Below are positions 13,830 to 63,860 of a DNA stretch of 64,000 nucleotides, piece after piece. The position numbers were made by a program, and so were the translations under genes. The DNA is from Styela clava (taxonomy: Eukaryota > Chordata > Ascidiacea > Stolidobranchia > Styelidae), in contig NC_135264.1 in the NCBI RefSeq assembly GCF_964204865.1, positions 4,990,001 through 5,054,000 of the forward strand, in the 5' to 3' direction. Below the pieces are notes generated by a model. The model ran no database searches and was not told the origin of the DNA. It saw nothing but the letters and a program-made list of their open reading frames with translations. The number at the start of each line of letters is the position of its first letter. Positions within the stretch are counted from its first letter, which is position 1.

Positions 13830-16800
13830 TCATTTTTGTCTACCAATTGTCGGTGTATCATTCTTACGATACAGATGGAACTCAGCAACACCTGGAAACA
13901 AAATGTTGTTGGTCAGTTGAAAAGTCAAGCATATCATGTTTGCGGCGCTATTGATGAGTGCAATTCTGCAGTTCAGAGATGAATTCATTTATACACAGAT
14001 TCAGTATAAATAATAAGCATTAATAATTCAAAAAATATGGCTTTTTTGTGATAATGATTTTTGTCAATTTACGGCACTGTACCACTACATGAAGTATTAT
14101 GCCTAAAATTATTATATATATCTCTACTATAAAATTTGAAAAAATTCTTACCATACGCCAGAACCGAAATTACGAGCAAGGCAATGTGAATGTAGATTTT
14201 TGAACCTACGCATAGAAATGGACTCCAGAAATATCCAATTGTTATACCAATTGTAATGCAAACATTCCGCACACTGAAAGAAATCTCGCGATTTTCTGGG
14301 AAATATTGTGCAACGATAGCTGAAATAGGAATTTTATATAAGTTCAGCTTTCTCTACCGATTTTGTAGAAAGTATTCAATGCTTTCACGCATACATAGTT
14401 TTATTAATACTAAATAACTGTATTATTGTTTCATATTAGATTTTACTATCAATAAAACGCCTAATTTGAAATTTTACCAGGATTACCCTGTAGTGCGTTC
14501 AGTTGAGAGTTCTGATATTTCGAACAAATCGTTTCATTGTATGTTAACTGTTAAGCCTTACAGAACGGGCATTCAAACCATTACCAAACGGAAGTTTGTG
14601 TAATAGTTACTATCTACTAAGAATTTGAACTTGTCCGCTAATTTGCCTTACCTACTGTGGAATTTTTCCATAGTGCGTCAGTCACTCCAAATCCCACAGA
14701 TAAAAAGTAGACAAGGAATGTAGTGCTGGTAGTAGGTTTCCAAAATTCACAGAGCAAATAGTTGGCCAATGTCAATGTAGCAATGGTTGCTACGGTTGCG
14801 TTCTTGCCAAAAAATCCTATGATTTTGCCAATCAAAAGCGATGCTCCAATGTGAAAAACATCATACAATACCAATACAGGTCCAACCTTGTGATAATAAA
14901 ATGAGCTAAGAATTTCATGTTGGAAAGAAGCAATATGATAACATACCATCAAAAAGTTCCTTTCATGGATAAAATGATTCGGTTTTCAAAGAACATGGTA
15001 TATAATATATATATATCAGGGGTGGCCAACCTGCTTTCAACCGGATCGACTAAAATCTTCAAAATAGATCGCGATCGGCTGATCAGTAATAAGGTCCTAC
15101 ACAAAAACGAATGGGCGCTGATTTATTTAAATCATACAATTCAGATAAAGGGCGTGCCTAATTTTTAGTCGTAACAATTGAAAATTCTTTGAGAAACCTT
15201 GCAAAGTTTTCATGTATTATCCAAACAGCGAAAAATTAATATTCTCAATCTATGAATGTTACAAGACTACTCAAACTTCAGTATGTAATTTACAATTTCC
15301 TCCAAAAGCGATTCTTCGCTTGCTTAGAATTAGAACAAATTGGGCATTTTGATGCCACTGCTACCATTGCGAATAAAATTTATCACATTACTCTTGGAGT
15401 GAGACAATAACTTTCGCATACTGTGGAAGTTGTTGTAGGATCGTTTGTCAGTCTAGACACGCGATATTCGGCACTTCATTTTTGAACCTTGGCAGCGGAA
15501 AAACCTACATTTGTTAGGGAACAATATGCTTTACCGGGCTTGCCCAGACTTAAATACCGTATGTGTATATTGTATTGTGCGCATGTAAAGAACTGTATTC
15601 TTTCTGTTGTTAAACACACAACTGGTTCGAGGCAATTTTTGGGGGTATTTCAATAAAATTCACTCAACATCAGACGCGATCGACGTGTTGGCCACCCCTG
15701 GTATATATGTATAATCACTTGTAAACTTTGATTCATTTCTATTACCTGGTTACTTTCTGTCGTGTCCACTTAGTTTTTCATGTTTCTTTATTTGAAATTT
15801 GTATGCTGTAGCGTGTGTTTGGTTAGCAAAGTTGTAAGCTTACAGAAAGGATAGTCAATTTGGCTATATCAAATATTCAATAGTTAATTGTAAGTGTACT
15901 TCTGTCATTTCGGTAATTTCTCACCATTTCTACTCCCAATATACACGATGAAAAAGCTCTGTTCATTTCTGAGTAAACGAATGCCAAGAATAATCCATAA
16001 TGCAGCAACATTGGAAATAGCAAAATTTGCTTTAAAGAGATTGTATGCTTCATGGTCGCCTTCAAAGTCGCCAATAAGGAAACGTCTATTTTCTGTTTGT
16101 TTACAAAGAATAAATTAAATTAGCCTCATACTTACTTAACTAAATGGTTAGATCCCGTTGTGAACATGAATCACGGGCAAAAACAAAAACTTCGTTCAGT
16201 GCAAATAGCTGGGGGATCATTGTTAGTTTTAAGTGCAAAGATATTACATAGCACATCATCGGCTTTGCAGTTTTGTGCTATTGAACAAACTATATCAACC
16301 ATTGCACCATTGACCACCAAATTTGTTCCTGCCCATTTTGGAATGATATTCAAAAATGATGATATTGAGATACTCACTTTTGTTGTTTTGTCAACGGAAA
16401 CGTCTTCGCTTTCATCAATTTCGGTTGGTTTTGTGACATTTTTTACTTCTGAATTTACTAAAAACTTCGCGTGTAAACCAATAGCACAAAGCGCTACCAG
16501 AATAAAAGCTCCCATAAGACTATAAACAGAAATTGCATTAGGAGGGACGTAGTTATTGAGAAATTTTTTAGTAACGTTAGGATTTTGGCAGTCGTTCGCT
16601 CCACAGTGTTCGTAGTTATTCATCATGGTAGTACCGTTGAATAGACCTACTGTAGAGTTTGTTGTTGTATTTTCTATATCGCTCCTTGTACTGTATAATA
16701 TTGCGTAACTGAGAATGCTGGTAAATATCTGAATTCAACAAAATACTCGTTATGAATGGAGAATGATGTAGCCTACGGCGCCAATTCTCATCTCAGCTAT

Positions 16801-19012
16801 TTCACATGATTCGTTTTTGTTCATAATAATTAGGTATCTACGGACTAAATCGAAAATTGTTGACATGGGCTGACGCGAAACATATTAAAATGATGTACAT
16901 TGTCATGAAGTCTATTCGCCTGTCAGCTGAATGTGTGCTGATGTGAGTTTCAAATGTTGAAAGCACTAGGGAGGTTAAAAGACGGGGTGATAATATAGCA
17001 ATAATCCTCATGATTTTACCCCAATTTCGGAGTTTTACTCCCATTTCAGTTAAAATTACGAAAAAGACAAGCGACAATCAGATGTGAACTTACAGTACGA
17101 ACTAAACTAATGCGACTATATCTGCTATTAACACAAGAGTTGAGTAATTGTGTAATGCGAGAGAAAATATATAAGTCATATATTACCCTCCCAGATCGTA
17201 GGATAGCAAAGAATTGTCCCGTATATTTTCTTTCATAATCATCGGATTCTTTACTTCCGTATAATCCATGCATTTGACCAAATACAATGTTATATATTGG
17301 CATTGTTGTCCAAACCAGGGAGCTTCCTATTCCTTCCAAAATTCCAACCGGGATCATAATATATGGTGCTGAAAATATGGTAAATGAATATTGCTAATAG
17401 TGTTATTTTAATGCTTTGTGGTTTGAAACTGATACAAATTTTTACCTGGATAAAAATTTCCAGCGACGAAAAGAATGGCTGCAGTTTCTCCTAAAACTAG
17501 AGACCATTTGTAGCCAATCCTAAATATAAATCAGTGCATGACTAAAATGTCTGCCTTGTTTAACAAAAAAATACATCATGGCTCGGTAACAAGAGCCATA
17601 AGAGCTAGAGTGTTTAGAGCAGCGGTTCTCAACCGGAGGCCCTCGGCCCCCTAAGGGGCGCCACAGAGGAGTTGGAGGGGGGCCACAAGGATGGGCTGAA
17701 ATCTGAATTTACTTTTCACTTTAAAAGAAATCTCACAGTTTTTCCTAGTTTGCTGCTCAACAAGGTTATTTCGCAGGGTGTTTTCGCTCTCTTTTGTGCA
17801 AGTTGTTTTAACATAATGGGATTTGGAATCTATCAATGAAAATAACCCTATTAATACCTCTGGAATATTAAAGTGGGGGCCATGAGTGCTAAAAGCCTCC
17901 GAAAGGGGGCCACGAGTCATAAAAGGTTGAGAACCACTGGTTCAGAGTTTCTAATCAAAATAGATGGGATGATGCAGATGAAAAAAGAACAAAAGCATAA
18001 ACTCAAAGAATTTTAACGATTGAAATCCTTCCCGTTTCACAGAAAAGATTTGAGTTGTCCGTTTAGGCTCTATGTCCATCACATCAGCTATGATGTAATG
18101 AATGAGGTGACTTATTGCGTACCGGGAAGATTGCTGTGAGGCCAGGAAACATATTGATCCACACATCCACTTGCAGTAATTGCTTCTCACTATAAGCAGC
18201 GGAGAAGTGGTATAAAATAACTAAGTAAACCGTGTTTATGTAATTATCCAGTTTTGTAATAGGAGTACTTGTAATCATAGCTTCTAGCAGTTTTTTAAAA
18301 CAAAGATACTAATGTTTATACTTTCGTATGATCAGTGGGGTGCAGAACAGTCCAGCCAAAGTTGAAGTCAATTTAGAAGTTCCCAAAGTCTTTGTGCCTG
18401 TCAAACAAAGTACGCAGAAAATGAAATTTGTTTGTCAATCAAAGTTTTGGTGATATTTATTTTTCATTACATAAATAAAGTCAATTTATCTCGGACATGC
18501 TTTATAATATAATAACTTAAAATTTGCTATAACTTGAACTTTGCTACTATACCGATAAGGGAAAAGGATACGAGATGAAATTTCAAAAACATTGACTGAA
18601 GTGTCACTGTTAACTGAGAGTCACATCCAACACGTCAAGTCGATAGTTGCACAATTTGAGATACTTGTACATTTTTTACAGATGAGTTGCAATATTTTCA
18701 CATATCACACTCGTTGTAGTTCTGAGTGTGAAGTGGCATATGCTTTTGATAGGAAAAACTTATTATTCTGCTTTCCGTGGTTCAGTTTGTTTTTATTTAA
18801 ATTTTCCACAAAGTGTGGTACTTACCAATGTTCTTTTTAATATTTATGCTGCTCTGTAGACTGCTAACTGACATGATTGTGCCTTGGAGAAGTAAACATC
18901 CCAAGGCAAAGATATAAAAATTAATCGTAACTTTTCTGATATTTTTCCGTTTTGATAGATTTCCGTACACTTTGCGTGGAACATCTGTAACGTCGTTTCT
19001 CGCCATTCTCAT
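13830..19012 (-). CDS. UNC93A: UNC93-family multi-pass membrane protein, complete
   Basis: Nine exons: 19012-18826, 18397-18322, 17519-17446, 17368-17187, 16728-16378, 16092-15925, 14886-14652, 14319-14152 and 13891-13830. Together they are 1503 bases, 500 residues, stop TGA at 13832-13830, with every intron phase consistent. The product belongs to the UNC93 branch of the MFS-like fold, about 11-12 membrane helices. Family landmarks in order are SSLQSSINIKKNIGTKTLG after the first helix, KIGYKWSLVLGE and ILFVAGNFYP, GQFFAILRSGR before a helix, an N-glycosylated cysteine-containing loop (CGANDCQNPNVT), a cytosolic acidic linker (TEIDESEDVSVDK), then ALWKNSTVG and the final YFWSPFLCVGSKIYI helix. 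The short basic tail ends DTPTIGRQK. It resembles UNC93A more than the Toll-like-receptor chaperone UNC93B1, but this needs a tree. ATG at 19012 is in good position, although an upstream untranslated exon is possible. A hAT MITE lies in intron 2, between exons 2 and 3. Confidence 0.93.
15017..15700. mobile_element. Non-autonomous hAT-type element in UNC93 intron 6
   Basis: The left end CAGGGGTGGCCAACC and the right end, read inversely, CAGGGGTGGCCAACA match. The flanks ATATATAT (15009-15016) and GTATATAT (15701-15708) form an 8-bp target duplication with one mismatch. Length is 684 bases and there is no transposase frame. Both subterminal regions carry GATCGCG/CGCGATC. Confidence 0.8.
17620..17939. 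mobile_element. Non-autonomous hAT-type MITE in UNC93 intron 2
   Basis: The ends are CAGCGGTTCTCAACC and, inverted, CAGTGGTTCTCAACC, the classic Charlie-like hAT terminus. Flanking GTTTAGAG (17612-17619) and GTTCAGAG (17940-17947) are an 8-bp target duplication with one difference. Length is 320 bases. GGGGGCCAC is repeated inside both ends. Not coding. Confidence 0.88.
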
Positions 19013-23463: not shown

Positions 23464-24854
23464 CTACACTGGAGGTAAGTCGGAATCTTCCCTTTTATTT
23501 TCCCTCTTGCGTACCACAGAAACATTGTCAGTTCCAACCTGTCAATATAGAACACAATATAGAACCTGTCAATATAGAAGCGCTAAGTCATAACAAAGTC
23601 ATCTTCGGTTAGGATATCGGTAAATTCCCAAAGGAGTTTTTTCTGACATCTAGGACCAAGTCTCATGCGTCAAATGAATTTTGCGTATAAATATTATAAT
23701 TGGGGAATCCACACGAATAAAGAAAATGTGTGACCACTCCAATTTGCATTTTTTTTTAATATTTTTGTATAAAGGATATATTTAATTATTGCTAGAGATA
23801 TTCGGCGTCGTTAGTCAGTTGGTTGATGTGCCTTACTTAAATAGTTGCCTCGGAACTGCAGATCAGCTTAGTTTATATCATTAATCATCATTTTTATAAA
23901 ACCTCTGACTTATATGGATTTGTACTTTATAGTTTTTAAACAGATAGCTTCTAAAGTAACGTTTTATATAATTAGTTACCTGTACGTTTGAGTTATCACC
24001 ATGAATATGTACAATGTGCATTGCCTGAATGGATACTTTTTGGCCAGACGTACCTTCACCAACTAACGATTTATTATCTGGAGTCGCACATAGGTTTGTA
24101 TTACCAGAACATGACGAAACCAAGCCAGGTTCAGCAATCAAATCGTCAGAATTTGGTGGTAAATTTCTCAATTCGTTAACTCCGGTATCTACAGTTGCAT
24201 TAGGAGTTGCTGTCGAATTCTCGCGAGCGTAATCTCCCCTTGCTCTTTTCTGAACGCTAGCTATTGTCTTGGAGAGACGCATCTCAAAGAACAGATCCTC
24301 ACGTAGTGTGGTATAAGCATCAAGAGTCAGAGGAAGCCTTGAATGAAGATATTCCCTCGGTTGCACAGTAACAAATCGGATACCAAGATCACGTCTAGTT
24401 ATGGATGCATATTGGGCAATATGCCTAGCTGACTGCAGGATGCCTTTATCGTTTAACGAAGTCCTCGTAGCCAGCCATAGTACCATTTGTTGTTCACTCA
24501 CGAAAGACTCTATAGCCTCAAACACAGCTAGACCAGCGTCATAAAAATCACACATTTGTGCTTTACAACCATTCCTATTTAAGGCATCACATATGCGATT
24601 GGCAATTTGAATATCAGCATCTGCGTAGAAAAGTCCTGCTTTCAATTCATGTTCCTGCCAACAAAGATATGTTTAGAACAGGCTTATATATACACATTTA
24701 TCGCCACTGTCTCACTAAACGGTAAACCTATACAATATATTTAATTGCTGCTACAACTCACTTGATTATGTACTGTAAGCTGGTCGATTGATTGGTTGAC
24801 CGCTGGCTGACTTGAATTAGAGACTGACGCATCGTGGCTAATACCACTTGCCAT
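23464..24854 (-). CDS. TICAM: TIR-RHIM adaptor, TRIF/TICAM-like, complete
   Basis: Three exons: 24854-24762, 24654-23980 and 23538-23464. They give 280 residues; both introns are phase 0 with clear GT-AG sites, and the stop is TAG at 23466-23464. The likely role is a cytosolic signalling adaptor. Residues 1-31 are Ser/Asn/Gln-rich. Residues about 35-165 are a TIR-like domain: strand A with box 1 (KAGLFYADADIQIANRICDAL), box 2 region (CDFYDAGLAVFEAIESF), central strand MVLWLATRTS, then IRFVTVQPREYL. The form of box 2 and of the later strand resembles the TICAM branch, not MyD88. Residues 166-236 are a low-complexity linker. Residues 244-265 are a RHIM-like amyloid motif (HIVHIHGDNSNVQVGTDNV), with core tetrad V255-Q256-V257-G258. 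The tail is KRENKREDSD-rich. TRIF has the same order, TIR then C-terminal RHIM. The codon at 24645 is TTG, so the internal frame start there is artificial; the true start is the ATG in exon 1. Confidence 0.85.
23540..23578 (-). repeat. Duplicated splice-acceptor block before the RHIM exon
   Basis: CTATATTGACAGGTT occurs twice on the minus strand within about 40 bases, separated by CTATATTGTGTT. Each copy ends in a usable AG. The downstream copy gives the frame VQ-VGTDNV; the upstream copy would add VLYCVLY and then a stop. Confidence 0.7.
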
Positions 24855-30027: not shown

Positions 30028-31672
30028 TCAAAATTCACAGACAACACCATCACGCGCATTGTTTGGATCATAATTCCACATATTTTGAGGGGATGTGCTG
30101 GGATCTGGTCGAACTTGAAGGTTGATTTGAGTGTATGCCGCGTTTGCTGATGGGTAACCAGGGTACCATATCATGTACGGTGCTGATGTACCACCTCTCA
30201 GATAAACTTCACCGTCCTGAAACAAATATTAAATTGGTTTTTAAAAATAGGGGGGGCGCATGAAGATTTCAGAAACGAATACTTTTATTCGAATCGAAAT
30301 TAATCACGAGTCTTTTTTTCGCAATAGACATCCAATCACACAAGTAATCGAAAACATAGAATCCATCACTCAAACGGTTCACTGAGTGTTCATACCAAAT
30401 AAAATACCATGTTTAATCAAAACCTCATTAGGAAGAGAAGAGTCCTATGTCAGAATTGCATTTTGTGGCTCCAGTAAAAAAAATGACGAATTCACCTCGA
30501 CCTTTGGCGAACAATAAAAAAAAAGATGGAGGCAATTCGAAATTTTTGTCTAGACCGATTCCAATAATTTACTATTCGATTCCAAATGCCAGCCATAGTC
30601 GAAACGAATGCACGGCATTTCAAACAAATAGAAACTTGAACTAGTCATAATTATATTTCATAATACAGAGTTAAACAATGCTACAATTCTGCCTTAGATG
30701 TTTTAAAATTGGTCATAAATTTCCAAACGAAGTTATGCATTTACCGTTTTTTTGTATGTCATTCCAAGCCATGGTTCAATGTAGTATCTACCATCTGGAA
30801 ATACAGATCTAATGTATGAAGTTAATTTATCGTATTGTTCTTTGCTGTATATATTAGCGGGTTCGGCGCCAATTTTTTTGCATTCTTGTTTTGCTCTCAC
30901 ATAGTTCATCTTTTCAAAGGTCACAAAGAAACATATGTTATCATGTTTCACATGACACCAAGCTAAATAAAAAACAAATTGATCACAGTTAAAAAACGAT
31001 TCAATTCCACGAATAATTGCGATTTGAAATGTGGGAAATACCTTTCTCAAAACGATCCTCCAAATATTCCAGTCTTGGTAACAACTTCTGGAATTCTGTC
31101 AATTTAAAAAATAACACAATTCAAATATACGATACGATTTTTAACGTATTTTCACTATTTGAATACATTGAAATTATTATCTAGGATTTCGATGCTACTA
31201 GAATTGGAACTGAAACGCGAAGATGTCCAAGTCTCCTATCAATGGAAATACATATCATGTATAATTGAGCTTATAAAAGATAGATGACACCATGTCATAT
31301 ATGTATAAAACTCTTTATTTCAATTCTTAGAAGTAATAATGATTTTAAGTAGTTTAACACGGTGAATTTGTTAGACTCACCTGTTACGACTTTGTTCTGG
31401 ATTATCAACTCAATTCTGTCGTAATCTACGACTGCTGTTTCACCAGGTAGACCCTGTGGTCCAACGTCACCTTTGTTGCCTCGCGAGCCTTTTGCACCTC
31501 TTTTTCCAGGTCTACCCTGTGTTTTTGCTGTTTGGTTGTGTGTTAGAGACGTTTGGGATTCAGTCGTAAACACATCTTGAACGTCTTTACAAATCATATG
31601 ACGATCTATTGCTTGTGACGTGCGCCAACAAATAAGACACACCAAACTTTGTAACAAGTACAACTTCAACAT
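30028..31672 (-). CDS. Collectin-like secreted C-type lectin, complete
   Basis: Four exons: 31672-31381, 31095-31042, 30962-30745 and 30216-30028. They total 753 bases, 250 residues, and phases 1-1-0 close. Residues 1-21 are a signal peptide (MLKLYLLQSLVCLICWRTSQA). Residues about 52-79 hold nine Gly-X-Y triplets (GRPGKRGAKGSRGNKGDVG and on). A short neck (LLPRLEYLEDRFEK) follows and may form the trimerising coiled coil. Residues 116-250 are a C-type-lectin-like fold: WCHVKHDNICFFV, MNYVRAKQEC, WLGMT, then WYPGYPSANAAY and MWNYDPNNARDGVVCEF. The EPN or QPD sugar-specificity triplet is not seen; YPS stands in that position, and the WND triplet is WNYD. Calcium-dependent sugar binding is therefore uncertain. 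Domain order matches collectins such as mannose-binding lectin, but the collagen arm is very short. Likely a secreted recognition molecule in body fluid. Confidence 0.88.
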
Positions 31673-34446
31673 ATTTACAATTTCTATGCTGTTTTTGAAA
31701 AAAAAATTCCTTATTCGATATTTTCTGTAATTGATGATGAGGTAAGCATTGTTCTCTTTCCCATTTTGTCAAATCTACTTTGCCACGATATTTTCCTGCT
31801 TAAGCATGTTTTATGACGAAATGACTGGAATTCTAAACACGTTTTATGAAAATTCACCATGACGAAAATTTGAGATCATTTAACAAAAGTTTTATTTCGA
31901 AAATCCACCCTAAACAGGTTAAGTATCTTATACAATGAAGACAATATTTTATAATAGCAGTATTAATTGTGTCTCGTGACATGTTCTTAATTCTTGCAAT
32001 CATCTTACCAAAAGCAACGATAATCTGCGCTGTTTGTCAATTTCATCTGATAAGATGGAGTCACAATATTTCTTCTATAGTCATACAATGAAACCTTTCT
32101 ATCCCATAATTTAGAAAAGCGAAAGTCTCAGTTACATTAGAAATAATACGACGTGAGATAAAACAATAAAAAGCTGATATATCTCCGAATACTAAACTCA
32201 AAAATTGGATTTTGCTTGAAATAGTATACCATCTAGTTGTGCGACACTAGTTGTGGTAATGATTGAAATAAAGTTACCCAAATGCGTGAATTCAAACTTA
32301 CAAAAATCTACACAAGATTGTCAAATATCATTGCAAACCCTATAACTGAAATTACTTCGGACATTTCATAGACTTTTAAAATCTTTTTTGCCTTGCCAAT
32401 GCAAACATATTAATACAAAAATCTACTTATTTAACTATTAGATCAACTACTGATGTGGCAACAACTACCAGCCTCGAAATATAACGATTTTAGCGATGTT
32501 CGGTTTAAAAACGTGTTCGCAGGCGAACGTGCTTCCGAAAACTGATGCTCGTTTAACGTAAGTTTTTTAAGTAACGACTTGTTCAGATACATAACTTTCA
32601 GTATGTCATCGCTCTGTAAATTTATGGGATATATTTGCAATTCGTTGGGTAACGAATATGATGAGAGTGTGGCTAAGATCAAGTGTAGCACAAGAGCGAT
32701 CACTTCTCAAACAAGCCCAGCCGAATAAAGAGAACCATATATTTTTACTTATTTCAGTTGGGAAAAAAAGAAAGCAGCCATCATCGAAGAAAAACACCAA
32801 TCACTCCGATTTGGTGACGTTATTGACAAAGCACATTCGACTTTTAACTGACGTCGAGCAAAGGAAAACACGCGTTTCGAGATGCCGAACTACAAGGCGG
32901 CGTTGAGCTGCAACATAATCTACGACCTCTAACTAAACCGTCATTGAGAATAAGGAAGTTTCTTTGACTGTCGTTGTGTTTTTGTCAATTTAGTTAAGCA
33001 ACACCCTCATATCGATAGGTATGCCAAAGTAAATGTATTTTGCAAAATCCCAAACATGTGTTTGAAATGTAGAAGTCGGTCAAAAGTTCGATTTTGTTGA
33101 CTGACTACAAGCCAAATAGCACACTCGTGCTCTCGTAACCAATTTATTCTCGGTCATTTGCAAAGATGATCCAAACACGAATCCATCCAATCTGATTGCA
33201 CCGTATTTCATACCTTTTTAATGGCCACTCAGTCAGTAGAAGATTTTAATTTACAAATGGAACCGATTTACATTCTACAGTGTGCAAACGCACTCTCGTA
33301 TTTAGGGGAGAAATGTGGAGAAATATCAAAGGCCGGGTGAGTTTCACATGTGGCGATCGAGGACCGGATAGGAGAGCTCTGTTGCAGTCTGTGTAATGTC
33401 GTTGACTGAATATTGAACAAGGCAATATATTAGTTAACTCAATGAAACGATCTATTTATTCTATTAGTTTAAAAAATATGAGGTAAGATTCAAATTTTGA
33501 TGTCATCAATGTTTGTCATCAACACCGGAATTGGAAAGCAAAACGCTTTAGGTGGGTATCCGCCAGTGAAATGTGGGTTCGATGTTAATACCTCCAAAAT
33601 TTCATTTTTCAAATGGAAATCATACACATACGTCAGTTATGCCATACCAAAATTTACTAATATTTTCAGCCACGTATTTATAATTTTGAAGCGTTTTCTG
33701 TAACGTTTTCCACGTGAGATCTCTTTAATTCCTTGAGTTGTGTTTCATTGAATGCTATTTTTAATACAGTAATTTCTGCGAAATTTTTCCATATTCAAAT
33801 AATTGCTTGATACAATTTTAGCCTTTCAAAAAATCAGGAATCTTTAAGCTTTGTCGTTGTTCTGGTATATATTATATTAATTTTGTTAATGCAGTCTAAG
33901 ACCACCGATACTACTTTATAAAACTGCATATACTTTAGACAAAGGCTCTTTTTTTGAATAATACAATAGCAAGATACCGTTTGGCATTCATTTCATTTTT
34001 AAGGTCATGGATAATACAGCTCGTCTAGTGGTGGTTTGAACTGGCCTAATGCCATTAGTTCTTTCTTACTCAGTCGTCACACCGTGATAGACTTTTACAG
34101 AATTTTTATTTCGAGAACCACATAACTTTAATCTGCTTGACGGGCTGAAATATTTCGCAGGGGCAACGAATACACAAGTGCCAAATTTCGCCGGGGTTTT
34201 AGCTATAATTTTTGAAGCTTCATTAAAGATGATTTGTTCACATCCAACTCTTTGTGTTTATAGATGAAAGTCAGTTCCGCCATTTTCAATATATACTTGT
34301 ATATATTCAAATATATGTATATATTGTATATATGTATTAAAAATAGTGATAAATTCTGAGTATTTCGCGAACACTCGTTTTTTTGCTATAAATCACAAGT
34401 ATGTTACTTGTCATTATGTTTTTCATATCTTTATATATATTTAATA
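31673..34446. other. Intergenic stretch between the lectin and the minisatellite
   Basis: No gene assigned. One frame on the minus strand (32703-32443) begins with a hydrophobic signal-like stretch (MIALVLHLILATLSSYS) and is 86 codons long, but it has no recognisable domain and no splice partner. Confidence 0.35.
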
Positions 34447-51073: not shown

Positions 51074-53089
51074 TTAAGAGTATTTCTTTGTTCGCATCAG
51101 CTGAATGTAGGTAAAAGTATACAATGATAAACAAATACACGACAAAGCAACGTTGTTTTTCCAAAGGTCCCAATCCCCAATTGATTCAGCGCTTTCTCCC
51201 ACTGAAAGGCTGCGAAATAAGATAGCTTCTCCCGTTGTCACAGTGCACGATTGATTCCCTGTTAGAATTGGGGTAATGTTTGGAGTAAAAATAGATGGTT
51301 CTTTGTTAGTATCGTTCCCGCATAATGTGAACTCCCTCCCTTTCAATTCGTTAACGCTAAGTCCAACTAAACCATATCTGGCAACGCTCATATACTTCAG
51401 CCATGAGAGCCATGGCAACATTTGGTCAACGTTGACCAAAAGACCTGAAAATATTATGGTGAAAACAAACGTCAGCACTAAACAAAGCTGGGCAATCGGC
51501 TGCGAAAATGATGACGAATAGAACAATCCTATACCCACTGAAGCGTAACCCATTAATAATGACGTAACGAGAAATATAAAAAACGCGCCAACCTCTGCTT
51601 TAAGTCCGACCATCCAATATGTTATTGAGCAAAATATAATAGGGGCAATCGTACGCAAAGGAATCAAATCGGCCAATACTTTTGCTATAAAGTAAGATAC
51701 GACGCGATAATAACCGGAGATGTGCTCATGAATGAATATGTCTCTCTCGAGGGTAAAGGCATTTATAACACTGATAGAGCCGAACAAGAGACTCGTACAA
51801 ATGAAAAACAGGATGCCGAGCACATTTTGTACTTCAGATCCAGGGTTATCATAAATTTTATAATACAAAAGTCCAAATACTATACCGATTATGATATTTA
51901 AAAATATATTCCCCATAAGCGCTGCAGGATTACGTAAAATATTTTTAAAAGTACGACCTAAAAGAACCCAAAGTTGATGTAAAAATCCGTTTGCATACAT
52001 TGCTTTGTTAGTTGAAGAACCACTGGGACTATCAGTTGATTCCTTCCCGTTTAATTCCAGATTAGCTTTATTTTTAACAGCTAATCTGAATTTCTCTGTC
52101 AACCCAACAAGATCTTGTTTTACTTCGACGAACGGCTCTTTCGTTGAATCAAGTTCGCGGCCGATCATATTCGATTCGTATTCGCCAATCAAAACGTCCA
52201 GTAAAAAGTCAGCAGGATTATCATGAGCCTGACATTCATATCCAAGGCCCTCAAAATGTGCTAAGGCATCTGTACCAGGTCCGTGATACACAAGGTGCCC
52301 CATTGATAGAAGAGTGAGGGAGTCAAACAATCTGAATATGCTGTAACGAGGTTGATGAATGGAACACACAATAGTATTCCCTTCGTCTCCCAGTCGTTTC
52401 AATAGTCTCATTACAGATGATGCGGTCGCTGCGTCCAAGCCCGTTGTCGGTTCGTCCAAAAATAAAATTTTGGGTTCAAGAAGCATTTCAATCGCGATCG
52501 AAGTTCTTTTCTTTTCCCCTCCAGAAATGCCACGAATGATGTTGGTCCCAATCTTTGTATCGGCACAAGAATCCAAACCTAGTTCGGATAATATACTGGC
52601 TATTCTACGTCTCTTTTCGGTGCGAGATATAGACGTAGGTAACCTCATATTTGCGCAAAACCATAGTGATTCTCTTACAGTTATTGTTCCAATGAAGAGA
52701 TCATTTTGAACGACGTAACCGCTAAGATATTGAAAATTCTTCGGCACCTTCCCGCCGTTGAGTAATACTTTTCCAGTTACATTAGCTGGATCTTTTCTGT
52801 TTGCTAAAACGTCCAAAAGCGATGTTTTCCCACTTCCTGTTGGTCCCATGATGGCATTCAATCCCGGTCTGATTGTACCACTGACGTCATTGAGAATTTC
52901 CTTCACGCTTGCTTTGCGGCAGCTTCCGCAACATCTCTGACGTACAGATATAGAATAACTAACGTTTTGGAAACTCATTCGTGAGCCATGGCCTCGCATC
53001 GGTTCCATTTCAATCTCCATAGCAGTTGCTCCGCCCGAAACAGTACTAACGACTGAATTGCTATTACATAAATTTTTCTTCGTCGACAT
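51074..53089 (-). CDS. ABCG2: ABCG2-type ABC half transporter on one coding exon
   Basis: 671 residues, close to human ABCG2 (655). Half transporter that dimerises in a membrane and exports amphipathic substrates using ATP. The N-terminal nucleotide-binding domain has Walker A GPTGSGKTS (82-90), Q-loop Q128, signature ISGGEKKR (188-195), Walker B ILFLDEPTTGLD (208-219) and H-loop H245 in SIHQPR. A linker of about 300-370 is Ser/Lys-rich. Six helices follow from about residue 390, including HEHISGYYRVVSYFIAK and IIFSGLLVNVDQMLPWLSWL. The last extracellular loop holds two cysteines and N-glycosylation sites (GNDT, PNIT, NQSC). The C-terminus LMRTKKYS resembles ABCG2 (KKYS). All catalytic residues are present, so it appears functional. 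No intron interrupts the coding region, unlike the vertebrate gene. A TTTTTATTTCAG acceptor ends at 53129, and the 5' leader then begins ATGATATT, a seven-codon upstream frame before the main ATG. Confidence 0.96.
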   Translation of the reverse strand: MSTKKNLCNSNSVVSTVSGGATAMEIEMEPMRGHGSRMSFQNVSYSISVRQRCCGSCRKASVKEILNDVSGTIRPGLNAIMGPTGSGKTSLLDVLANRKDPANVTGKVLLNGGKVPKNFQYLSGYVVQNDLFIGTITVRESLWFCANMRLPTSISRTEKRRRIASILSELGLDSCADTKIGTNIIRGISGGEKKRTSIAIEMLLEPKILFLDEPTTGLDAATASSVMRLLKRLGDEGNTIVCSIHQPRYSIFRLFDSLTLLSMGHLVYHGPGTDALAHFEGLGYECQAHDNPADFLLDVLIGEYESNMIGRELDSTKEPFVEVKQDLVGLTEKFRLAVKNKANLELNGKESTDSPSGSSTNKAMYANGFLHQLWVLLGRTFKNILRNPAALMGNIFLNIIIGIVFGLLYYKIYDNPGSEVQNVLGILFFICTSLLFGSISVINAFTLERDIFIHEHISGYYRVVSYFIAKVLADLIPLRTIAPIIFCSITYWMVGLKAEVGAFFIFLVTSLLMGYASVGIGLFYSSSFSQPIAQLCLVLTFVFTIIFSGLLVNVDQMLPWLSWLKYMSVARYGLVGLSVNELKGREFTLCGNDTNKEPSIFTPNITPILTGNQSCTVTTGEAILFRSLSVGESAESIGDWDLWKNNVALSCICLSLYTFTYIQLMRTKKYS

Positions 53090-53104
53090 TATTTTTTTGA
53101 CTCT

Positions 53105-62152: not shown

Positions 62153-63860
62153 TTAATATTTATTTATGAGATACCTCATATACTTATATTTGAAACAGCT
62201 ATAAGACGATTCTATGATTTCATTGGGAATAGAGTTCCAAATACTTGGACCAGTAATTTTAATGGAGTCGCGGGCCAAACTGGAACTTGTCCGACTAACA
62301 AAATATGCTCCTCTACCCGCTAAACGAGTGTTGTATTGGTGGACATTACTACAATTTGTGAAGTAGCTATCGAAAATTTCAGGCAGAATTCCATGTTTAA
62401 ATTGAAACATGATTTTCGCTATTTCGAATTTATATACATCAGCTACTGTAAGAATATTCATCTTTTTATAACTGGGACTTATTCTCTCACGAAAACGAGT
62501 ACCACTCATTAACCTTACTGCACGATTTTGAAGTATTCTAATCCTATCCATATAAGTCTTAGGGGCAGAACCCCATGCCACAATTCCATATTGAAGATGT
62601 GAGTAAAATAGAGCGAAATATACGGTTCTTAATACCTTTTCAGATACAAACGGTCTCAGTTTAGACATAGCACCTATGGCTCTGGACAGTCTACCTGCAA
62701 GTTGATTAATATGCCTATGCCAGTTTAGCTTATTGTCTAGAATAACTCCAAGATATTTGACAGAGTCACAGATACTAAGTAATGAGTCGTTTAGTATAAA
62801 TTTTGGAGTGAGGTTCGAATTTTTAAGGCTTTTGCTACAATTAATCAATAAGACTTGGGATTTACTAGGATTGACAGTTAGCTTGTTTTTAATTAGCCAT
62901 TCTGATATACAATAGAGATCCCTATTAACTATATTTTCTAGGTCGGACAGATTTTTTTGCAGCGAATGTAGCACTAGTATCATCAGCGAAAAGTTTAATT
63001 GGAGCCCTAATGGCATTGACAATATCATTTACATGAATTAAAAAAAGGGTAGGCCCCAGAACTGAGCCCTGGGGGACCCCTACCGACACCTTTTCACTTA
63101 TTGATTGACAACCAACCAAACTTACAAATTGACGTCTATTTTGCAAATAACTTTTGAACAATTTATTGGCTACTTTCCGAATTCCATAGTAATTAAGTTT
63201 TGTAATTAAGATATCATGATCCACTGTATCGAATGCTTTTTTCAAATCCAGAAATACACTACAGCCTAATGAGCCTTCATCTATAACGTTATAGTAATGG
63301 CTGATAATATCTAATATAGCATGTGAAGTGCAATGTCCGACCCTAAAGCCAAATTGGTCCCTATTTAGAATTGAGTTTTTGGCCAAAAAAGATTTCAGTC
63401 TCTTTAGTAATACTTTCTCATAAAGAATTGAAAGACAAGACAGTACCAAGATGGGGCGATAATTTGACACGGTTTCCTTATTTCCAGATTTGTAAACCGG
63501 CACAACTCTGGCAACCTTCAAATGCCTGGGAAATACCCAGGGTCATGGAGATGTTGAAAAGATTACACAGGGTTGGACTAATGATGGTCTTTAAAATTTT
63601 AATCAAATAGACCGGAACGCGGTCGTGACCTTCTGCTTTACCAGTCGCAAGCGTGGAAATAAGCATTTCAATTTCGTTGGTGGTGGTGGGCTCTAGATAC
63701 ATTGAAGATTTAATGGGTTGCTTTAAATATTTCATAAAATCGTAATTGCTGTTTGAAAAAGATGAGGCAAGCGTCGGCCCAATCTGGGAAAAATAATTAT
63801 TGAAAACATTACAAATGTCAACTGGATCTAATCATTCAAGAACGCGCTCACTTTCGCTCT
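62153..63860 (-). mobile_element. LINE of the CR1/L2/Jockey group, frameshifted, 5' end beyond the window
   Basis: Non-LTR retrotransposon reverse transcriptase, read right to left. Pre-RT segment: FNNYFSQIGPTLASSFSNSN. RT box 1: VARVVPVYKSGN then NYRPI. DLKKAFDTVDHDIL carries the first catalytic aspartate, VPQGSVLGP is the template grip, and LFADDTS holds the catalytic FADD. Then KLTVNPSKSQVLL, YLGVILDNKLNW, and the C-terminal block HYG-type SHLQYGIVAWG and HQYNTRLAGRG. Two one-base shifts break it: one near 63520-63540 (between SMTLG and HLKVARV), one at the T-run 62951-62957 after FADDTSATFAAK. It is thus inactive unless these are sequencing errors. The endonuclease domain would lie outside the window. 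No poly(A) tail is seen after the stop at 62153. Confidence 0.92.

Follow-up and report, generated by a model that had tools for sequence, protein, structure and literature searches.

The window, which is the whole 64,000-nucleotide stretch of DNA analysed here (G000:C19:4990001-5054000), carries on its minus strand a gene for a predicted protein that joins a likely TIR domain to a RHIM-like motif near the C-terminus, and a paralog of the same order lies on the same contig. The pair is a variant of the TRIF plan, a TIR domain with a RHIM-like tail and without the N-terminal domain of TRIF, present in two copies in a tunicate. The observation of an earlier sequence-only reading is confirmed and stands on firmer ground than was known then, and its interpretation is partly supported. 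We see roughly an even chance that the window protein, one of the two paralogs found, acts as an adaptor in the manner of TRIF in this tunicate and is most likely a TICAM relative that has diverged strongly.

The 280-residue protein was reconstructed exactly from the sequence as three minus-strand exons with phase-0 boundaries:

24762..24854, minus strand: exon 1, 93 nt, residues 1-31, with the ATG at 24854 and the donor GTGAGT
24655..24761, minus strand: intron 1, 107 nt, phase 0, GTGAGT...TTGGCAG
23980..24654, minus strand: exon 2, 675 nt, residues 32-256, containing the TIR domain, the linker and the first half of the RHIM-like motif
24253..24645, minus strand: probable TIR domain, about residues 35-165, recognised by a weak Pfam TIR_2 match, identity to the paralog, alignments, trees and motifs
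23980..24015, minus strand: first part of the RHIM-like motif, residues 245-256, IVHIHGDNSNVQ
23539..23979, minus strand: intron 2, 441 nt, phase 0, GTAACT...TTGACAG, which splits the tetrad as VQ^VG
23464..23538, minus strand: exon 3, residues 257-280 and the stop codon, with the VG of the tetrad, TDN and a charged tail
23515..23538, minus strand: second part of the RHIM-like motif, residues 257-264

An in-frame TAA lies three codons 5' of the ATG, and the splice sites are canonical. With 263 aa including read-through, exon 2 has the longest frame of 84 listed between 20 and 28 kb. If the second splice is omitted, the frame continues for 32 other codons into intron 2 and the G of the tetrad is lost. 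The three exons, phase-0 introns and open frame of 280 aa that had been proposed were thus recovered exactly, with the codon and phase of intron 2 shared by the paralog, and the exon reconstruction bears out the predicted VQVG tetrad at residues 255-258 of 280.

A search of the whole genome (376.6 Mb, 379 contigs) with the window protein returned, besides the three exons of the query itself, a single further place, G000:C19:12447951-12448643, which is 7.4 Mb distant and 37% identical to the window protein (E 8.1e-35). With this paralog as the query, the genome search returned itself and the window gene and no further member. The paralog has the same order of a TIR domain, a divergent linker and a RHIM-like tail. 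Its exon ends in ...NIHITGANSTVQ, and after an intron of 390 nt comes IGSGNQQIFDGNQQ and then the stop codon; splicing creates the tetrad VQIG at residues 232-235 of 247, as it does in the window gene. The junctions of this intron align at the identical codon and in phase 0 in both genes, and therefore both tetrads are cut between Q and V/I (VQ^VG and VQ^IG). Intron 1 of the window gene apparently has no counterpart in the paralog, in which the start codon heads the TIR exon, and the paralog carries an additional IQLG at residue 6, N-terminal of its TIR domain.

Over the aligned columns, the two proteins are identical at 60/129 positions in the TIR domain (47%), 14/75 in the linker (19%), 10/24 in the motif region comprising residues 241-264 (42%) and 0/6 beyond the motif. 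The pattern G.NS.VQ(V/I)G..N is kept between them despite the low identity of the linker. The codon-position identities within the TIR domain (0.53/0.74/0.31) are as expected for a coding sequence under constraint. It is mainly because the paralog shares the tetrad-splitting intron, a conserved TIR domain and tail, and a divergent linker that we accept exon 3 and the motif. Among candidate relatives outside the animal (query A1), 0/143 pattern matches on viral contigs and 0/69 on genome contigs were confirmed.

The first domain of the window protein is likely a TIR domain. Pfam TIR_2 matches with an E value of 0.0032 for the whole protein and 0.00064 for the domain alone, both below the cut-off. 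The paralog has no TIR match in Pfam, genome scans with TIR and TIR_2 returned 3 and 21 places that include neither paralog, and PDB sequence searches with the proteins found no TIR. For comparison we used ten human TIRs (TICAM1, TICAM2, MyD88, TIRAP, TLR1, TLR2, TLR3, TLR4, SARM1 and IL1RAP), with the start of TICAM1 set as in the PDB chain; alignment z values against the ten were calculated from 1000 shuffles. In global alignment, the window TIR scores highest with TICAM2 (4.40) and TICAM1 (3.95), followed by MyD88 (3.39), TLR4 (3.36), TLR3 (2.93) and the others, and the paralog TIR scores highest with TICAM1 (4.37), followed by MyD88 (4.10), TICAM2 (3.58), TLR2 (2.69) and the others. Local alignment places TLR3 above TICAM1 for the window TIR (3.71 and 3.03) and MyD88 above TICAM1 for the paralog TIR (3.79 and 3.33). 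The hhalign matches are all weak, with MyD88 (17.5%) ranked first, above TICAM1 (4.4%).

Two short motifs, both chosen after the alignment, link the pair to the TICAM proteins: DFxxxG occurs in both paralogs and, among the ten human TIRs, only in TICAM1, and AxR[VI] occurs in both paralogs and only in TICAM1 and TICAM2. The BB loops read CDFYDAG and CDFYQAG. They keep the D, F, G and spacing of EDFxxPG, which the available part of PMC7075850 gives for the TRIF group, but not its E and P. In an IQ-TREE MFP tree of 12 sequences, the pair stands beside TICAM1+TICAM2 with a UFBoot of 60 and an SH-aLRT of 57; in a mixture-model tree it is left without a resolved position, next to TLR3 at 20/1 on long branches, and the TICAM grouping is not recovered. 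Joining the pair to the TICAMs in a single clade is not rejected by an AU test (p 0.455), a result that speaks neither for nor against the kinship. The TIR of the pair leans towards TICAM1/2 on motifs and pairwise scores: of the TICAM-like TIR first proposed, the TIR itself probably stands, on the weak TIR_2 match and the 60/129 identity to the paralog, and the kinship with TICAM is not settled by the trees. Neither protein contains LxIS, which was sought as a test for pLxIS. With a loosened pattern, one TRAF6-like site, PREYLH, is matched inside the window TIR and none in the paralog.

The tail was evaluated with a 14-column RHIM score built from four known RHIMs, three of them from the PDB, against a background of 211,442 windows, from which nine duplicate loci were left out and in which the window, L007 and some duplicates remain. 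The window tail scores 18.25, a value attained by 10 of these background windows; for the paralog tail, with 16.25, the number is 24. For the unspliced reading of the window tail, 2,519 background windows score as high. Human TRIF obtains 26.3 from a model built without it. If only the three RHIMs seen in the PDB are used, the same tail site scores best in each paralog. When the residues after the TIR domain are shuffled, 20/5000 shuffles match the tail score of the window protein and 74/5000 that of the paralog. Both tails contain the core (V/I)Q(V/I/L/C)G, which is the consensus given in the consulted section of PMC9444067; the longer motif ends in a hydrophobic residue two past the Asn, and neither VQVGTDNVS nor VQIGSGNQQ has one there. 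The Pfam RHIM model (PF12721), the kind of profile that the sequence-only reading had put forward as a check, matches neither protein at E values up to 10. Because the scores and shuffles lie above background while Pfam RHIM is silent and the last hydrophobic residue is missing, we regard the tail as carrying a RHIM-like motif that is above chance yet divergent, and not as a certified RHIM. The C-terminal motif claimed earlier is upheld to the extent that it is the best site in both proteins and that the intron splitting its tetrad is conserved.

An internal duplication (HIHGDN / VQVGTDN) had also been suggested. On inspection, an approximate mirror symmetry around Q, also found in the RIPK3 and RIPK1 RHIMs, fits better, and the duplication was rejected. 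In the genome, the Pfam RHIM scan at E values up to 10 returned two weak places, L004 and L005. L004 (G000:C14:4570399-4570431, STNIQLGHNNTMSI) reads NIQLGHNNTM and has a RHIM score of 25.0, the top of the background set; because its frame is AT-rich and has no protein-like context, it was set aside as a probable chance match.

One of the closest known systems is vertebrate TRIF/TICAM1, in which the TIR domain likewise precedes a RHIM close to the C-terminus; its BB loop has the DFxxxG spacing and its first helix AxR[VI]. TRIF/TICAM1 differs in its length (721 residues in the TICAM1 chain of PDB 8rlm, compared with 280), in its N-terminal domain, for which the window protein has no Pfam match and only 34 residues before the TIR domain, and in the E and P of EDFxxPG and LxIS, which are not kept in the pair. 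Unlike the RHIM of TRIF, the RHIM-like motif of the pair is split by an intron and has no hydrophobic residue at the second position past the Asn. The TRIF architecture assigned earlier is thus retained for the TIR domain and the C-terminal RHIM-like tail but not for the N-terminal domain. TICAM2/TRAM shares AxR[VI] and is the top match of the window TIR in global alignment, but is described in the part seen of PMC9440496 as a TIR-only protein with no RHIM, unlike the pair. The RIPK3/RIPK1 RHIMs and related fungal and bacterial amyloid motifs have in common with the pair the core (V/I)Q(V/I)G, with xxN after it, and the approximate mirror about Q; the tails of the pair differ in their divergent flanks and in the silence of PF12721.

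The earlier reading had also inferred that the TIR-RHIM fusion predates vertebrates. According to the available part of PMC6043800, this had already been claimed for amphioxus bbtTICAM, although PMC9440496, as far as its available text goes, describes the RHIM motif as conserved except in Actinopteri and lancelets. Excerpts of PMC6043800 and PMC11788365 report that bbtTICAM acts through its RHIM; this TICAM of a non-vertebrate chordate resembles the pair as far as its published description goes. In the literature open without subscription, we found no published tunicate TIR-RHIM adaptor. PMC12816324 speaks of the absence of a MyD88-independent pathway for the TIR-less TLR-like genes of Ciona.

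The reading we prefer, a TRIF-like adaptor related to TICAM, has to be weighed against a tunicate-specific, non-TICAM TIR protein that gained a RHIM-type tail independently and resembles TRIF by convergence, which we regard as possible though less likely. Such convergence would fit the support of 60/57 in one tree, the unresolved placement in the other and the long branches, as well as the preference of local alignment and hhalign for TLR3 or MyD88. It would also fit the report in PMC7075850 that no TRIF-group TIRs were found in lancelet, lamprey or Ciona, which suggests a restriction to jawed vertebrates, and the occurrence of bacterial amyloid motifs paired with TIR domains (PMC7889193). However, TICAM is favoured over the eight other human TIRs by the global scores, by the DFxxxG spacing and by AxR[VI], with the motifs selected post hoc. 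A TIR adaptor with a non-amyloid tail, whose VQVG would be a coincidental match within a polar sequence, seems unlikely to us. The silence of Pfam RHIM, single-tail shuffle frequencies of only 20/5000 and 74/5000, and the higher score of the apparently non-coding L004 agree with it, but the tetrad and G.NS.VQ(V/I)G..N are kept in the paralog despite the divergence of the linker, with an intron interrupting them at the matching position.

That exon 3 is mis-predicted, with the protein ending in intron 2 without the tetrad, or that the locus is a pseudogene, is very improbable: the frame does extend 32 codons into intron 2, but the paralog keeps both junction and phase, joining there likewise makes VQIG, the frame of the window gene is intact and its TIR shows codon-position bias. 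Enzymatic TIR domains are widespread beyond the adaptors of TLRs. A SARM1-like, NAD-consuming TIR enzyme clustered by an amyloid tail was considered. Neither paralog contains W-x3-E, which among the ten human TIRs is present in SARM1, TLR1, TLR2 and TLR4 and absent from TICAM1, TICAM2, MyD88, TIRAP, TLR3 and IL1RAP, and the scores with SARM1 are low; the NADase reading was rejected on the missing W-x3-E and has hardly any probability left. For a TRIF-like adaptor, the TIR domain itself suggests docking to an activated TLR or to other TIR assemblies. Clustering would then gather the C-terminal RHIM-like motifs and, as the motif suggests, nucleate a short amyloid, which would capture a partner with a compatible motif, and the output may be NF-kB activation or cell death of the caspase/MLKL type.

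The genome contains a glycosyl hydrolase 6 exon just downstream of exons that carry, by eye, the cellulose-synthase motifs DAD, TED and QRSRW. The CesA-GH6 locus is a tunicate hallmark, and the apparent invertebrate of the sequence-only reading can be named more precisely as a tunicate. Tunicates are the sister group of vertebrates. The genome also has a cluster of TLR-like genes, recognised by eye. Membrane-protein frames at 16171-16734 and 17046-17393 of the window look UNC93-like by eye and have no Pfam match; UNC93B traffics TLRs in mammals. Elsewhere in the window are a collagen-like stretch at 31295-31768 (Pfam E 0.00016, below the cut-off), an adjoining lectin-like frame at 30733-31098 (a possible collectin by eye, with no Pfam match), an ABCG-type transporter in a single open frame of 676 residues at 51074-53104 (ABC2_membrane, E 3.1e-43), and LINE-like pieces with a reverse transcriptase at 62153-63831 (RVT_1, E 3.6e-26 for 62925-63542).

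A RIPK1-like gene (L042 217-1737; G000:C2, about 20785.1-20786.7 kb) combines a kinase domain and a death domain in a single open frame of 507 residues. Both domains are closest in the PDB to RIPK1 (5.1e-44 and 5.9e-11, respectively), and the death domain is also detected by Pfam. By eye, its catalytic motifs are degenerate, with VAIR, HLL and DIG in contrast to the VAIK, HRD and DFG of active kinases, and its frame contains no RHIM tetrad. At five more kinase places, one downstream piece of 900-1600 nt was read for each; frames longer than 60 or 80 residues were free of the tetrad, which is a partial test because the pieces of L076 and L077 have no continuing kinase frame. An excerpt of PMC12119088 reports that RIPK1 homologs, defined with the RHIM tetrad, were not found in tunicates; because this definition required the RHIM, published work may have overlooked a tunicate RIPK1. 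For amphioxus, a RHIM in RIPK1 is reported (lancelets; PMC12119088, same excerpt) or denied (B. lanceolatum, together with starfish; available part of PMC11507063). A RIPK1 partner engaged through its RHIM, as reported for amphioxus and vertebrates, is unsupported by sequence here, since the only RIPK1-like gene found lacks the RHIM tetrad.

MLKL has been described in Ciona and Styela, according to the part of PMC11476962 that was available. In this genome, an MLKL-like locus (G000:C13:11914802-11916875 and L080) has one MLKL_N exon over the cut-off and one weaker neighbour. The 2 kb downstream contain exons that are pseudokinase-like by eye, with HGN replacing HRD, and no tetrad in frames over 30 residues.

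A caspase-domain scan of the genome returned 54 places, and a death domain is joined to a caspase domain in six of the frames in view, two of them confirmed by Pfam. Two of these genes, L044 and L048 (G000:C6, 18.835-18.840 Mb), carry one and two I.I.G.N(A/S)..(I/V)(Q/E/R) motifs in the linker between the death and caspase domains. The pattern I.I.G.N(A/S), which was defined post hoc, has 3 matches in 2/6 such linkers, compared with about 0.005 expected from shuffles; elsewhere, a scan of 666,605 residues in six frames, duplicates included, gave one further match, in a 20-residue frame. A genome search with one of the linkers returned the same two genes only, and the caspase heads L072-L074, named by eye, contain no such motif. 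The linker motifs resemble the adaptor tail, yet without VQ.G. Several apparently NLR-like, intron-poor frames (L058, L059, L060, L065, L066, L067 and L069, of which L058 and L060 overlap) consist, by eye, of two death domains followed by a P-loop (GDTGSGKTT or alike).

Because the TIR-RHIM adaptor is kept while the RIPK1-like kinase has no RHIM tetrad, the adaptor amyloid may act as a template for some other effector, such as the death-domain caspases with I.I.G.N(A/S) linkers. A direct TLR-to-caspase amyloid axis of this kind is a speculative and rather improbable reading; within it, the tetrad-splitting intron of both paralogs would let intron retention yield amyloid-dead isoforms.

The tunicate TIR-RHIM pair would imply either that vertebrates and tunicates inherited an amyloid branch of TLR signalling from their shared ancestor or that the same fusion has arisen twice. 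With a RHIM-less RIPK1-like gene and MLKL-like exons alongside the pair, the role of a RHIM adaptor without a RHIM kinase becomes testable.
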